The notes below the pieces were generated by a model. It saw only the letters and a program-made list of their open reading frames with translations, did not search any database and was not told the origin of the DNA. DNA of 64,000 nucleotides from Vreelandella azerica (GTDB taxonomy: Bacteria; Pseudomonadota; Gammaproteobacteria; Pseudomonadales; Halomonadaceae): NCBI RefSeq assembly GCF_013112225.1, contig NZ_JABFHI010000001.1, positions 310,001 to 374,000 of the forward strand, read 5' to 3'. Every line of letters begins with the position of its first letter. Positions within the stretch are counted from its first letter, which is position 1. Of this stretch, positions 2,233 through 7,523 are shown piece by piece. The position numbers were made by a program, and so were the translations under genes.

Positions 2233-3257
2233 ATGCCCCCATTGGTAAATACTTTTTGCAGTCTGTGCTACCGCTAGTTAATGTGCTGATCCGTGTGCTG
2301 AAAAAGAGCGGGTGCTGTGTCTGTTCCAGCAGAGTTGGCAAGGCGGGGGCGGCGACGCTGGCCTCCTGGTGTTTTGCGCTGGCTGCTCAGGCGGAAGAGT
2401 CTGAATGGCCCAAAGGTCACTATCCGCTGCCAGAAGTCGGCAATATGGTGGGTGAGACTTACCGCGTGAACGCTGAATATGAAGATACGTTGATTGATAT
2501 CGCCCGTGACCATAACGTGGGTTATGAAGAAATTATCCGTGCCAACCCTGAGGTAAGTATCTGGGTGCCTGGCGAGGACACTGAAGTGGTGATACCGGGG
2601 CGCCATATTCTGCCCGACGCTGAGCGTAAAGGGATTGTGATCAATCTGGCCGAGCTGCGCCTTTATTACTACCCTGAGCCGGCTGAAGGCGAAACGGCAA
2701 GAGTGGAAACCTACCCCATCGGGGTTGGCCGCGATGGCTACAATACCCCACTGGGAATGACGGAAACGACCATGCGCCTGAAAGACCCGGCCTGGTATCC
2801 ACCGGAATCCATGCGTGAAGAAGCCGCTGCCCAGGGTGAGCCGCCGCCGAGTGTGGTGCCACCCGGCCCGGATAACCCGCTGGGCGAATACGCCATTCTG
2901 CTCGATATTCCAGGTTACCTGATTCACGGCACCAACCAGCCGGATGGCATTGGCATGCGTGCCAGCCGTGGCTGTATCCGCATGTTCCCGGAAGATATCG
3001 AATCAATTTTCGGGCGTGTGCCAGAGGGTACACCAGTCAACATCATTGATGCGCCGATTAAGCTGGGTTTTGATAATCAGGGGGTGCCTCATCTACAAGC
3101 CTTTGCAGCGCTGGGCGAGCAGGAAAACGGTATGAATACCCTGCTGGGGATGTTGAGTGCACTCAATCAGCAGCAGGCTAACGAGCAAGTCGTTGATTTT
3201 GAGCGTTTCAGTCAAACGCTGGAACGTTCCAACGGAGATATTGTGCCTTTAATCTGA
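2233..3257 (+). CDS. L,D-transpeptidase with LysM-like N-terminus (ErfK/YbiS family)
   Basis: This periplasmic enzyme family makes 3-3 peptidoglycan cross-links or attaches lipoproteins to the wall. After a signal-like segment ending ALAAQA, a LysM-like region (about residues 55-110, YRVNAEYEDTLIDIARDHNV) precedes the YkuD catalytic domain. The active-site signature IHGTN is followed by GMRASRGCIRM, which supplies the catalytic Cys and His. The best start is the ATG at 2233, which has a GAAGGA ribosome-binding site. That frame stops after 14 codons unless one T is added to the 5-T run at 2253-2257, and with it the product is 341 residues. Without the correction only a TTG at 2256 is available. 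The preceding gene is motB, and no operon is implied. Confidence 0.86.
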
Positions 3258-3272
3258 GCCTTGTTGGATGGC

Positions 3273-3932
3273 TCAAGCTTCGGGTAGAGCAGAGACCAGC
3301 CCCAAGGCAACGGCTTGCCTGACAAGCTCAGCCAGATTGTTAGCGCCAAGGGCTTTCATGGCTCGCTGTCGATAGACTTCCACTGTTTTGGCGCTGATGG
3401 CCATTTTTTCGGCAATCTCACGGCTGGTCATCCCTTGAGCGACAAGGGTGATGATCTGCTGCTCCTTGGGGCGCAATGCGGCAAATCGCTGATTCAGTTC
3501 ATGGTGCTGCAGATTGCTTTGATGGCGCTGGTTCGTCTGGGCCAAGGCTTCCTGAAGGCTATCGATCAACTGCTGATGATTGAAAGGTTTTTCGATAAAA
3601 TCAAAGGCGCCATTCTTGAGTGCTTGCGTGGCCATGGGAACATCCCCGTGGCCTGTCATCATGATCACTGCAGCACTCGCTTCCCTGTCAGCCAGTTGCT
3701 GTTGTACCTGCAGGCCGCTGAGGCCGGGCATGCGCACATCGAGCAGCACCACCTTCCAGTTGTGCGGGCTGGCCAGAAAGCTGTCGCCATCAACAAAGGC
3801 AGCGGCTTCCAGTCCTACTGAATCCAATAGCCAGACGAGCGATTCGCGCAGCGCTTGATCGTCATCAACAATGGCAATGTCATGAGTAGTGCTATTACGC
3901 TTGCCTGTATTTTCCTGACATGAGGTATCCAT
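3273..3932 (-). CDS. FixJ/NarL-type response regulator
   Basis: A two-domain DNA-binding response regulator of about 219 residues. The receiver domain has the acidic pocket IVDDDQ, the phosphoacceptor Asp in VVLLDVRMPG, the MMTGHGD switch region and the lysine in FIEKPF. The C-terminal LuxR-type helix-turn-helix reads TLVAQGMTSREIAEKM followed by SAKTVEVYRQRAM. The FIEKPF and GHGD motifs place it in the FixJ group. The start is the ATG at 3932; a TTG one codon upstream is less likely. It is the last gene of a reverse-strand run behind a PAS kinase (34-base gap) and a 2OG oxygenase, so it is the cognate regulator. Target genes cannot be read from the sequence. Confidence 0.88.
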   Translation of the reverse strand: MDTSCQENTGKRNSTTHDIAIVDDDQALRESLVWLLDSVGLEAAAFVDGDSFLASPHNWKVVLLDVRMPGLSGLQVQQQLADREASAAVIMMTGHGDVPMATQALKNGAFDFIEKPFNHQQLIDSLQEALAQTNQRHQSNLQHHELNQRFAALRPKEQQIITLVAQGMTSREIAEKMAISAKTVEVYRQRAMKALGANNLAELVRQAVALGLVSALPEA

Positions 3933-3969
3933 CAAGGTCTTTTCCCGTCACGTATTTTTCTATATGGAC

Positions 3970-5496
3970 TCAAGCGCAGCGTAGTCTAGCGCTAAAGCGC
4001 GCGCCGCTAAATAGCGGGCTATGGCTTACGCTGAGTGCGCCGCCCATGGCTTCCATCAGGGAGCGGCTGATGGCCAGCCCTAACCCCAAGCCTTCGGCAC
4101 GAGTAGAGTGAAAGGCGTTAAACACCTCGGCCTGTTGCTCATCAGGCACGCCGGGGCCCTGGTCATCCACATGTACGATCAGAGTGTTTCGAGTATTTTC
4201 TTCAACACTGAGGTGGACATGGCGTGCGTTGGGCTGTTGGCGGCTGGCTTCCAGTGCGTTTAATAAAAGATTGACGAATACCTGCTCGAGCGCCACCGGG
4301 TCGGCCATAACGTATATATTAGTAGCAGAATGTGACTGTCTGATATCCAGGTTGGCTTGCTGGTAGCGCCATTGACAAAGCTGCCAGGCGGCTTCAATCA
4401 CGCCAAAAAGCTCCACTCGGCGAGATTGGGTGCCACCGGTGCGAATAAAGCGCCGGATATGGCGCAAACGTTCAGCGAGGCGCTGAACTTGATGATCAAT
4501 CTGGGTAAGTGGATGCGCCAGTTTTTGAGCAGGCAGCTCAGGGTTAGCCTGTAGGGTGAGCAGGGCGCCGTTGGCGTAATTGGCGATGGCGCCGAGTGGC
4601 TGATTGAGCTCGTGGGCAATATTAGAGGTCAGCTCGCCCAGGGTTGCCAGCCGGTTGGCATGGGCAATCTGTTCCTGATGGCGGCGCGCCTGGGCTTCAG
4701 CGTGCTTGCGAAGACGGATATCGTGATTCAGCAACGAATGATGACCGGGTTCAGCCCCTCTGCCACGATGGGCCTGAACGACGCTGATGACCGGGATCAG
4801 CCCATCATGGCCGCGCATCTCCAGCTCGCCGCTCCAGGAGCCGTAGCGGGCCACAGCGGGAAACACCACTTTGTTGAGCAGACTGAGCGAGGCATCGCTG
4901 TAAACCTGGCTCAGCGGAACAGCTTGGGTGGAGCGAGGCAGGTTAAAGCGTCGCCGTGCGGCTTCGTTGGCGCTGAAAATGGAACCATCTTCAGCCACAA
5001 AGAGCACGTAGTCAGAGGTGGATTCCACCACCTGAGCCAGGCGCTCGCGATGGGCTTCTACTTGGATACGCCGCCCCACATCCCGGGAAACACAGAGTAT
5101 ATCGATCAACTCGCCAGTGGCAGGGTCGCGGCGGGTGCGGCTGGTGGTTTCAAACCAGACATAATGGCCGCTTTTGGCACGAAAGCGATAAGTCTGCTGA
5201 TAAAATCCGGCATGGTAGTACACCCGTGGTGACTTGTTCAGCAGGTCGCTCAAATCCGCAGGGTGAAACAGTTGATAGGCGGAAACGCCAATGAGCTCAT
5301 CTGGCTCATAGCCCAATAGATCCCGAGCGGCATTGGACGCATACAGGAAGGTACCGTCCCGGGCATGCCGGGAGATCAGGTCGGTGGTGCTTTCTGCCAG
5401 CCACTGGTAATGCTGCTTATCTTCGTGCAACTGTTGATTGTGTATTTCAAGCTCAGCAATGCGTGCTCTGAGCTGTTGTTCGGTGGTCTGCTGCAT
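3970..5496 (-). CDS. PAS-domain sensor histidine kinase (FixL-like)
   Basis: A soluble-looking 508-residue kinase with no obvious membrane helices. An N-terminal coiled segment is followed by two PAS domains (roughly residues 28-145 and 150-265; the first has a PAC-like YRFRAKSGHYVWFE). The dimerisation/phosphoacceptor helix holds the H-box IAHELNQPLGAIANYANG near residue 293, of the ELNQPL type seen in FixL and DctB. The ATPase domain has the N-box VFVNLLLNALEAS, the G1 box DDQGPGVP and the G2 box GLGLGLAISRS. It starts 4 bases after the oxygenase gene stops. I see no heme-ligand signature I can trust in either PAS, so the signal is unknown. Confidence 0.88.
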   Translation of the reverse strand: MQQTTEQQLRARIAELEIHNQQLHEDKQHYQWLAESTTDLISRHARDGTFLYASNAARDLLGYEPDELIGVSAYQLFHPADLSDLLNKSPRVYYHAGFYQQTYRFRAKSGHYVWFETTSRTRRDPATGELIDILCVSRDVGRRIQVEAHRERLAQVVESTSDYVLFVAEDGSIFSANEAARRRFNLPRSTQAVPLSQVYSDASLSLLNKVVFPAVARYGSWSGELEMRGHDGLIPVISVVQAHRGRGAEPGHHSLLNHDIRLRKHAEAQARRHQEQIAHANRLATLGELTSNIAHELNQPLGAIANYANGALLTLQANPELPAQKLAHPLTQIDHQVQRLAERLRHIRRFIRTGGTQSRRVELFGVIEAAWQLCQWRYQQANLDIRQSHSATNIYVMADPVALEQVFVNLLLNALEASRQQPNARHVHLSVEENTRNTLIVHVDDQGPGVPDEQQAEVFNAFHSTRAEGLGLGLAISRSLMEAMGGALSVSHSPLFSGARFSARLRCA

Positions 5497-5500
5497 CGCG

Positions 5501-6169
5501 TCAACTCGCAGGGTCGAGCACTCTGCCCAGAGATGCGTTACGCCGGAACCAGCCGGCGATACTGGTTCTGGGTAGGCGGGTGGGCAACACCTCGTGGGGT
5601 ACGGTCTCTGACAGAAAGCAGGTAAAGGTGCCGGCTTCTGGCACCACGCGAGCCATTTCCTGATCAGAGGCGTCAGGATGGTAGATCACCATCTCACCGC
5701 CTCCGTCTGCGGGCCACTCAGGGTTCAGATAACCAACGGTGGAAACGACCCGGTTGGCGCGCCCGCGAAAGCTGTCCAGGTGGCGCTGATAAAACGCGCC
5801 TGGCGGATAGTGGGCAAAATGCGCCTCATATTCGAACAGCCCCAGGAACAGCGCCTGATTAAGCGACTGCTGTAGCTCGGCCATACCGGCTAGATAGGTG
5901 CGTTGGGCCTGGCTTTCCCGGTTCAGCCAGTGAATGGCGTCACCGCGAATATCCTTGCGCAGGTGATGCTCTGTGCCACGCCCGATACCCGCTTGACTTA
6001 GGCCATCATGCTCGGCCAGACGGCAAATTTCAGCATACAGTTGCTGGCACAGAGCGGGGTCCAACACCTTGCTGTCTGCAAACCAGCCCTGCTCGACAAG
6101 AGCATCCACAATGCGATTGATGGTGGCCTGGCCAAGCAGGGAAGCGGCCGATAAAGGGGGAGACATCAT
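5501..6169 (-). CDS. 2OG-Fe(II) oxygenase (prolyl-hydroxylase-like)
   Basis: About 222 residues. The double-stranded beta-helix signature is visible: HYPPGAFYQRHLDSF gives the first iron ligands (H and D, HxD), GYLNPEWPADGGGEMVIY the next strands, and VPHEVLPT followed by RTSIAGWFRR gives the distal His and the Arg that grips 2-oxoglutarate. This matches the P4H/SM-20-like group of dioxygenases. Members hydroxylate protein side chains or small molecules; the substrate here is unknown. ATG at 6169 is preferred over an upstream TTG. It is the first gene of a tight operon with the histidine kinase (4 bp) and the FixJ-like regulator, an unusual pairing. Confidence 0.85.
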   Translation of the reverse strand: MMSPPLSAASLLGQATINRIVDALVEQGWFADSKVLDPALCQQLYAEICRLAEHDGLSQAGIGRGTEHHLRKDIRGDAIHWLNRESQAQRTYLAGMAELQQSLNQALFLGLFEYEAHFAHYPPGAFYQRHLDSFRGRANRVVSTVGYLNPEWPADGGGEMVIYHPDASDQEMARVVPEAGTFTCFLSETVPHEVLPTRLPRTSIAGWFRRNASLGRVLDPAS

Positions 6170-6232
6170 GGTCAATGGTCAGTTATCCGTCAGAAAAGTG
6201 CGTTATAGCATGAAAATTCAGCGCCGTAGGGT

Positions 6233-6877
6233 TTATTTGTCAGCCATGGGTTTTGAGCGCTCGGAGACCCCGCGCACAGGGTGGCGGCGCAGCAAGCCGC
6301 CAGGTTTCTCATACAGGCTGATAGGCATGCCGAAACCCTTTGCCAGCAGTTCCACCAGCATCATCGCTGAAAGCCCCCATATCACAAAACCATCGACGTG
6401 GTAGCTTGGCACGTAGTGGGCAACGCCATCAACGATGATGACGTCGGTGTGGGTGCGCCGGTCGTCGAGAAAATGTTGAATAGGGACTTCGAAAATGGCG
6501 TCGAGCTCGCTGGGGTCTGCCTTGAGGGGCAAGTCAGGAGGAATCAACCCCACCCAAGGAGTGACCTGAATACCGTGCAGGGAAATCACATCAGAAAGCT
6601 GCCCCAGCGCCTTGACCTGATCAGACGGAAGGGCAATTTCTTCCTCGGCCTCGCGCAGGGCGGTGGCATAAAGATCCGGGTCCTGCGGCTCCTGCTTGCC
6701 ACCGGGAAACGCCACCTGGCCGCTGTGGGTGGCCATATGGCTGGCACGCCGTGTCAGCAGCAGGGTTGGCTGCGGACGATCGACGATGGGCATCAGTACC
6801 GCCGCCCTGGGGAGGTTCATTTCCTTCAAGCGTTGAGGGCGGTGCTGTTGCAGCCGTTGGCTGAGTTTCTCTAACAT
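6233..6877 (-). CDS. Nudix hydrolase, CoA pyrophosphatase type (NudL/YeaB-like)
   Basis: A 214-residue Nudix protein. The Nudix box GX5EX7REUXEEXGU is present as GGKQEPQDPD, then ATALREAEEEIAL, with the catalytic REAEEE glutamates. The preceding VAFPGGK and the overall length match the CoA pyrophosphatase subgroup (E. coli YeaB/NudL), which cleaves coenzyme A to phosphopantetheine and ADP. A UPF0035-like upstream motif (LLLTRRASHMATHSGQVAFP) is visible around residues 40-60 and supports CoA specificity. It diverges from the next Nudix gene, with the two starts about 90 bases apart. Confidence 0.85.
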   Translation of the reverse strand: MLEKLSQRLQQHRPQRLKEMNLPRAAVLMPIVDRPQPTLLLTRRASHMATHSGQVAFPGGKQEPQDPDLYATALREAEEEIALPSDQVKALGQLSDVISLHGIQVTPWVGLIPPDLPLKADPSELDAIFEVPIQHFLDDRRTHTDVIIVDGVAHYVPSYHVDGFVIWGLSAMMLVELLAKGFGMPISLYEKPGGLLRRHPVRGVSERSKPMADK

Positions 6878-6965
6878 GAGGTTTCCTGAGTCTGTGTTTT
6901 CTTTTACCCAGCAGCGAGCGTTGGCGTCAAGTGGCGCTATGCGTTGCCTTCAAGCGAGAGTGCTG

Positions 6966-7523
6966 ATGAACTTTTGTAGTCAATGTGGTGAGAAAGTCCG
7001 TTTTGCCATTCCGGAAAGTGATGATCGCCCGCGCTACCTGTGTGATGCCTGCGGCACCATTCATTACCAAAATCCTCGTATTGTAGCAGGCACCTTGCCG
7101 GTCAGCGGCTCTCAGGTGCTGTTGTGCAAACGCGCCATTGCGCCACGCAAAGGCTATTGGACACTGCCCGCCGGGTATATGGAAAACGCCGAAAGTACTT
7201 CCCAGGCCGCCGCCCGCGAAACCTGGGAAGAGGCCTGTGCCGAAGTGGCATTAGCCAATCTGTATACGCTGATTGACCTTCCTCATATCAATCAGGTGTA
7301 TATGATTTTTAAGGCTGACCTGGTAGGTGGCTTTGCGGCAGGGCCGGAGAGTGAGGAAGTGGCGCTGTTTGAAGAAGATGAAATCCCCTGGGATTCGCTG
7401 GCTTTCCCGACCATCGAGCACACCCTGCGCCACTTCTACGCTGACCGCCATAAAGGTCTATACCCCTTGCATACCGGCGTGATTACCCCGGAAGACCGCG
7501 AACGCTACTTCGGTAGCGCCTGA
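6966..7523 (+). CDS. Zinc-ribbon Nudix hydrolase (NADH pyrophosphatase-like)
   Basis: A 185-residue protein beginning MNFCSQCG at the ATG at 6966. The frame stays open upstream to 6876, but the zinc ribbon starts here. Two Cys pairs (CSQCG and CDACG) form the N-terminal ribbon. The Nudix box is GYMENAESTSQAAARETWEE plus ACAEV, with ARETWEE as the metal-binding core, preceded by GYWTLPAGY. This composition is typical of the NudC-like/COG1051 group acting on nucleoside diphosphate derivatives. The substrate is not settled; this form lacks the full NudC N-terminal domain. Confidence 0.82.
   Translation: MNFCSQCGEKVRFAIPESDDRPRYLCDACGTIHYQNPRIVAGTLPVSGSQVLLCKRAIAPRKGYWTLPAGYMENAESTSQAAARETWEEACAEVALANLYTLIDLPHINQVYMIFKADLVGGFAAGPESEEVALFEEDEIPWDSLAFPTIEHTLRHFYADRHKGLYPLHTGVITPEDRERYFGSA

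Follow-up and report, generated by a model that had tools for sequence, protein, structure and literature searches.

Does a prolyl hydroxylase gene that leads into a two-component system encode an enzyme which acts on that system, one which is controlled by it, or one which has simply come to share its transcription unit? This question is raised by a three-gene row in a 64,000-nucleotide stretch of Vreelandella azerica DNA (assembly GCF_013112225.1, contig NZ_JABFHI010000001.1, positions 310,001 to 374,000 of the forward strand; hereafter the window), in which the gene for a 2-oxoglutarate (2OG)- and Fe(II)-dependent oxygenase lies directly upstream of genes for a PAS-type sensor histidine kinase and a FixJ-like response regulator. 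We consider it probable that the row combines an EF-Tu hydroxylase with a two-component system of a carbon-metabolism type that has evolved separately, both carried on one transcription unit. This reading is built upon the homologies of the proteins, the gene order, the nested position of the kinase in its tree, and independent losses of either component among relatives.

The oxygenase and its predicted substrate

Read from the ATG at 6169 (an in-frame TTG at 6175 is the listed open reading frame (ORF) start), from which its residues are numbered here, to a stop codon ending at 5501, the oxygenase matches Pfam family 2OG-FeII_Oxy_3 (PF13640) above the cut-off (E 3.8e-20). Its best sequence match in the Protein Data Bank (PDB) is the Pseudomonas putida prolyl hydroxylase PPHD (4iw3/4j25, E 1.7e-46), with 88 of 191 residues aligned to 4iw3 identical (46%); the next families, Dictyostelium PhyA (8e-11) and human EGLN1 (8.4e-10), are far weaker. 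A search with the AlphaFold model, which was built from 25 sequences at a predicted local distance difference test score of 90.0, likewise ranks nine 4IW3/4J25 chains first (4IW3_A: E 3.9e-25, template modelling (TM) score by target 0.95, root-mean-square deviation 1.7), and by both sequence and fold the enzyme is nearer PPHD than other prolyl hydroxylases by a wide margin. The HxD...H motif of the 2OG-oxygenase core (H130, D132 and H192, for iron) and the 2OG-binding arginine (R201) are invariant in 25 aligned relatives. The gene is single-copy in each of the 63 matching genomes of a class-level sample (369 genomes, 366 of them outside Halomonadaceae; thresholds E<=1e-20 for the oxygenase and E<=1e-60 for the kinase). 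Judged by sequence and modelled fold, the enzyme is a Halomonas-type version of PPHD, and the likeness to oxygen-sensing prolyl hydroxylases that an earlier note on this DNA had remarked upon reflects true homology, in sequence and fold matches alike.

The original article linking PPHD to EF-Tu reportedly appeared in PNAS in 2014. Passages of three papers report that PPHD hydroxylates EF-Tu in its switch I loop (PMC5701443, PMC4682802, PMC7864055), and one of these describes GTP hydrolysis and global translation as unchanged by the modification in Pseudomonas (PMC4682802). The V. azerica genome holds one EF-Tu match above the family cut-off, which carries NAPEERERGITI, with proline at position 54 (initiator methionine counted). 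As PPHD is the closest solved relative in both sequence and fold, the catalytic residues are kept, and PPHD is reported to act on EF-Tu, hydroxylation of EF-Tu is much the likeliest role for the oxygenase, which by analogy would most likely modify Pro54 using O2, 2OG and Fe(II).

Distribution and gene row

Among 201 Halomonadaceae genomes (thresholds E<=0.001 for the oxygenase, E<=1e-80 for the kinase and E<=1e-60 for the regulator), 183 are positive for the oxygenase, 56 for the kinase and 56 for the regulator, the latter two sets not being the same. The earlier note had called for a check of gene order in relatives, and the order is conserved: the kinase lies directly downstream of the oxygenase on the same strand in 46 of the 56 kinase-positive genomes, with gaps between matches of 7 to 116 nucleotides counting the stop codon, and this count is a lower bound, given that two further genomes (G156 and G189) carry a diverged kinase in the same place. 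Of the ten non-linked kinases, six come from genomes without an oxygenase match, in which the order NUDIX gene, kinase, regulator is kept (G150, G174, G176, G204, G219 and G228), one comes from G172, and the other three, all distant, come from G084, G099 and G132.

No kinase match at E<=1e-80 was found in 134 of the 183 oxygenase carriers, a few of which hold diverged or remnant kinases, such as a remnant of about 110 residues beside the oxygenase in G191; the kinase of G231 has an internal deletion. More than half of 48 oxygenase loci (26 of L001-L048) lack a kinase within 1.5-kb flanks, and in 11 of the 26 the transpeptidase gene adjoins the oxygenase; a NUDIX gene stands beside the oxygenase in all 48. 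Of the 183 oxygenase carriers, 46 hold the locus-type kinase, as do 6 of the 18 genomes that lack the oxygenase (Fisher p 0.41); the two genes are not kept or lost together as would be expected of HIF-like, hydroxylase-controlled signaling. Outside Halomonadaceae, the oxygenase is present in 60 of 366 genomes and the kinase in two, both being present in none, and this kinase was found in the flanks of none of 27 oxygenase loci. The oxygenase and kinase are separable, because losses run both ways, their presence is not associated within the family, and no genome outside it holds both. In one locus from outside the family (L203), an unrelated-looking, generic histidine kinase core (2883-3509, 29% identity), not of this kinase's subfamily, shares the strand of the oxygenase and lies about 0.8 kb upstream of it.

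In the window, the minus strand carries, in order, genes for a NUDIX CoA pyrophosphatase, the oxygenase, the kinase and the regulator (Table 1). The spacer between oxygenase and kinase is the four bases described in the earlier note (5500-5497), whose placing of the three-gene row is correct, and the regulator begins 37 bases after the kinase, at an ATG at 3932 (with an in-frame TTG at 3935). From strand and spacing we infer that oxygenase, kinase and regulator share one transcription unit; a scan for promoters and terminators was uninformative in this regard, returning one promoter-like site against 1.3 expected, and four terminator-like sites against 3.2 expected. On the far side of the NUDIX gene, a second, different NUDIX-type gene (6876-7523, plus strand) stands head to head with it with almost no space between, an arrangement of start regions that recurs in several relatives.

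Table 1. Coordinates of the oxygenase, the two-component system and their neighbors in the window.
Feature	Position	Strand	Basis
2OG-Fe(II) oxygenase (prolyl 4-hydroxylase of PPHD type), predicted to act on switch I of EF-Tu	5501..6169	-	ORF, Pfam, PDB sequence match, alignment, predicted fold
Soluble sensor histidine kinase, two PAS-like regions and FixL-like kinase core	3970..5496	-	ORF, Pfam, NCBIfam, PDB match, model
FixJ/StyR-like response regulator, receiver and LuxR-type DNA-binding domain	3273..3932	-	ORF, Pfam, NCBIfam, PDB match
NUDIX CoA pyrophosphatase (NudL-type), upstream of the oxygenase	6233..6877	-	176 bits against 134-bit cut-off
L,D-transpeptidase, convergent, bordering the kinase-regulator pair at its downstream end	2256..3257	+	Pfam/NCBIfam profile matches

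The row of oxygenase, kinase and regulator invites a less probable alternative, namely that the regulator controls transcription of its own operon, the two-component system thereby adjusting EF-Tu hydroxylase levels to the oxygen or carbon state of the cell. The common strand, the short gaps, and retention of the position across two genera are consistent with such control, and autoregulation is common for two-component operons. However, the oxygenase is mostly present without this two-component system, no regulator site was identified, and the operon promoter may lie at the NUDIX gene further upstream. Of the readings that remain, such control of the hydroxylase is the most interesting.

Kinase and regulator: history and kind

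The history of the kinase was traced in a midpoint-rooted tree of 54 rows, labelled by hand from the surveyed loci as OXY, NOOX or ACYL. Rows with an internal deletion (L090), a broken match (L124) or the same genes as another row (L085, L093 and L094, matching L097, L095 and L096) were left out, as were kinase-positive genomes without an extracted locus. The 36 oxygenase-linked and six oxygenase-less kinases form one clade of 42 rows (support 99/99), within which the oxygenase-less state needs at least two changes; the G172 kinase is next outside this clade, followed by that of G434. A contig scan by kinase-core motifs assigned eight of 80 loci (L106-L112 and L124) to the subfamily, the rest being FixL controls or outgroups.

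Outside the clade, the genomic setting changes. In G172, whose kinase is 60% identical to that of the window, the kinase-regulator pair lies on another contig than the oxygenase, beside genes for an acyl-CoA dehydrogenase and a PRK08162-type acyl-CoA synthetase; in G434 (48% identical), the kinase is beside genes for a 3-hydroxybutyryl-CoA dehydrogenase, an acyl-CoA ligase and a BktB-type thiolase. The kinase loci of Marinobacter, Neptuniibacter, Pontibacterium, Neptunomonas and G084 include MaoC, acetoacetyl-CoA reductase-type and malonyl-CoA decarboxylase genes, and mostly an acyl-CoA synthetase gene too, such a synthetase also being the neighbor of the kinases in G099, G132 and G534. Judged by the tree and these neighborhoods together, the acyl-CoA setting is likely the older one for the subfamily, and in a halomonad ancestor the kinase-regulator pair would then have come to sit between the oxygenase and L,D-transpeptidase genes. 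The pair in the window belongs to a small subfamily with distant members among acyl-CoA, hydroxyacyl-CoA and polyhydroxybutyrate (PHB)-type genes; its signal is most likely a metabolic or redox cue in the cytoplasm, and its targets are most likely genes for carbon storage or acyl-CoA metabolism.

Two further features of these loci deserve record. In five loci of Marinobacter or Oceanospirillaceae type (L109, L110, L111, L124 and L097), a cluster of genes for the FixL-like kinase, FixJ-like regulator, malonyl-CoA decarboxylase, MaoC and acetoacetyl-CoA reductase-type protein is conserved, and the cluster as a whole looks like an undescribed regulatory unit. Separately, a gene for a PhaC-type polyhydroxyalkanoate synthase stands between kinase and regulator, on the opposite strand, in G231 (L090:1089-3068) and G206 (L215:4822-6633); the intervening frames of G206 and G231 match PhaC_N above the Pfam cut-off, and score 517 and 514 bits, below the class I cut-off of 622.65 bits. 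The kinase-regulator gap in G202 (L214) is of similar size.

A bolder proposal is that, in many halomonads, a metabolic two-component system from an acyl-CoA or PHB setting captured the EF-Tu prolyl hydroxylase gene, such that carbon-storage or redox state would set the level of EF-Tu hydroxylation. We regard this as doubtful; were it true, modification of a translation factor would be under dedicated two-component control.

The earlier note had described the kinase and regulator as a FixL/FixJ-type system. This holds for the kinase core, the best PDB match of which is the FixL core of YF1 (E 3.1e-35), but extends no further: the kinase scores 157.4 bits against the 850-bit NCBIfam cut-off for FixL equivalogs, whereas the Bradyrhizobium FixL controls (L123 and L173) score 945.2 and 941.5 bits, which rules it out as a FixL orthologue. 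In Pfam, it matches PAS and HATPase_c, with HisKA just below the cut-off (25.3 against 26.9 bits), and its phosphoacceptor motif is HELNQPL. PAS-like regions span residues ~29-140 and ~150-260, the second being read from predicted structure and alignment rather than from a Pfam match, in a model with a predicted TM score of 0.45. The regulator combines Response_reg and GerE domains, and is most similar in the PDB to FixJ (E 5.2e-42), yet at 193.6 bits it falls below the 255-bit FixJ equivalog cut-off.

In this light, sensing of oxygen through haem in the manner of FixL is an improbable role for the kinase, and so is the pairing of two oxygen-using devices at the locus which the core and regulator matches might suggest. 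The alignment column of the FixL histidine which we take to bind haem is occupied by tyrosine in the first PAS region of the window kinase, with His96 one residue away, and has no histidine in the second PAS region in the full-length alignment; haem in the kinase is unlikely on account of these two substitutions. A histidine does stand on the column in the first PAS region of the G172 and G434 kinases, although none was found there in the Marinobacter-type relatives.

The nearest solved relatives of the first PAS region (window 5077-5412, minus strand) are the PAS-B domains of HIF-2alpha, HIF-1alpha and ARNT (E ~1e-14). The neighboring oxygenase gene is of the HIF-hydroxylase family, but we read the match as a PAS-family coincidence, PAS-B not being the hydroxylated part of HIF. 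Identity of the regulator with EupR, a NarL/FixJ-family protein of Chromohalobacter salexigens, was set aside on the description of the partner kinase rather than on sequence, a passage on EupR reporting a hybrid kinase with a sodium/solute symporter domain (PMC2964678), which the window kinase does not resemble.

Weighing the readings against known systems

One proposal of the earlier note, which would make the kinase or regulator a substrate of the hydroxylase and thereby put two-component activity under the control of oxygen and 2OG, is the least probable reading, and very improbable in our view, for while the adjacency in 46 genomes and the homology to prolyl hydroxylases that modify signaling proteins speak for it, six genomes keep an apparently intact kinase-regulator pair without the oxygenase, most oxygenase carriers lack the kinase, and the closest characterized relative is reported to act on EF-Tu. 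The note had itself named an oxygenase found mostly without the kinase, or one with an unrelated substrate, as evidence to the contrary, and both are largely what was found. As each gene occurs without the other in relatives, the kinase is probably not the target of the hydroxylase. Further, the LxxLAP and EF-Tu-like proline motifs sought (LxxLAP, AP and [ND]xP[ED]) are absent from the window kinase and regulator, and the co-encoded regulator thus lacks the hydroxylated-proline motif of a HIF-like system. Proline is present in at least 90% of the 36 linked kinases at 13 alignment columns, 12 of which also have proline in at least three of the six oxygenase-less kinases. The locus does not stand as a case of two-component signaling modified by a hydroxylase. 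A literature search, judged on titles and the starts of abstracts, recognized no described system as this one, and the terms histidine kinase and FixL are absent from the excerpted text of a review of polyhydroxyalkanoate regulation (PMC9049629).

Several points weigh against our preferred reading, of an EF-Tu hydroxylase beside a separately evolving two-component system. Hydroxylation of EF-Tu by the halomonad enzyme is a prediction from homology, and the target proline in the genome is weak evidence because, to our knowledge, the switch I motif is near-universal. Within the locus clade, which spans two genera, 46 of 52 genomes have the kinase adjoining the oxygenase, a pattern that a functional link could produce as well as plain vertical descent. 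Residue P250 of the window kinase is present in 34 of the 36 linked kinases and in three of the six oxygenase-less ones, the pattern that a substrate proline might give, and a weak point in favor of kinase hydroxylation, this being one of the 13 columns, uncorrected for relatedness or column number. The acyl-CoA context relies on nine labelled rows, some with kinases only 38-40% identical, and whether the move started from an acyl-CoA locus hinges on how the tree is rooted, a tree in which long branches were flagged (L095, L096 and the outgroups).

With these reservations, the locus shows a known enzyme in a new genomic context, next to a two-component system that has its own history. A bacterial relative of the animal oxygen sensors, one for which the kind of substrate is known, here forms part of a conserved operon-like row; Halomonas, a PHB producer, is a tractable group in which to ask whether, and by what, EF-Tu hydroxylation is regulated; and the locus points to an uncharacterized kinase-regulator subfamily with relatives among acyl-CoA and PHB-type genes.

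Among known systems, PPHD (P. putida; PA0310 in P. aeruginosa) is the closest counterpart, in sequence, fold, catalytic residues and the presence of the EF-Tu target proline in the genome, the halomonad enzyme differing in that its gene is followed by those for the kinase and regulator, and in that its function is predicted from homology. The EGLN/PHD prolyl hydroxylases of HIF share its superfamily and fold (TM score ~0.77 for PHD2), but are much more distant (E 8e-10 or weaker), and HIF-like motifs are missing from the neighboring kinase and regulator. FixL/FixJ resemble the two-component system in the core of a soluble-type PAS kinase (about 28-29% identity to FixL overall) and in a LuxR-type regulator; the window proteins differ in scores far under the NCBIfam cut-offs, in the lack of a haem histidine at the aligned column, and in the absence of a nitrogen-fixation context at the examined loci. 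Finally, the regulator also resembles StyR (1YIO, E 3.5e-38) and TtrR (182 bits, below the 290-bit cut-off), while the kinases of these systems differ from that of the window, the match to TtrS being limited to the kinase core (residues 264-491).

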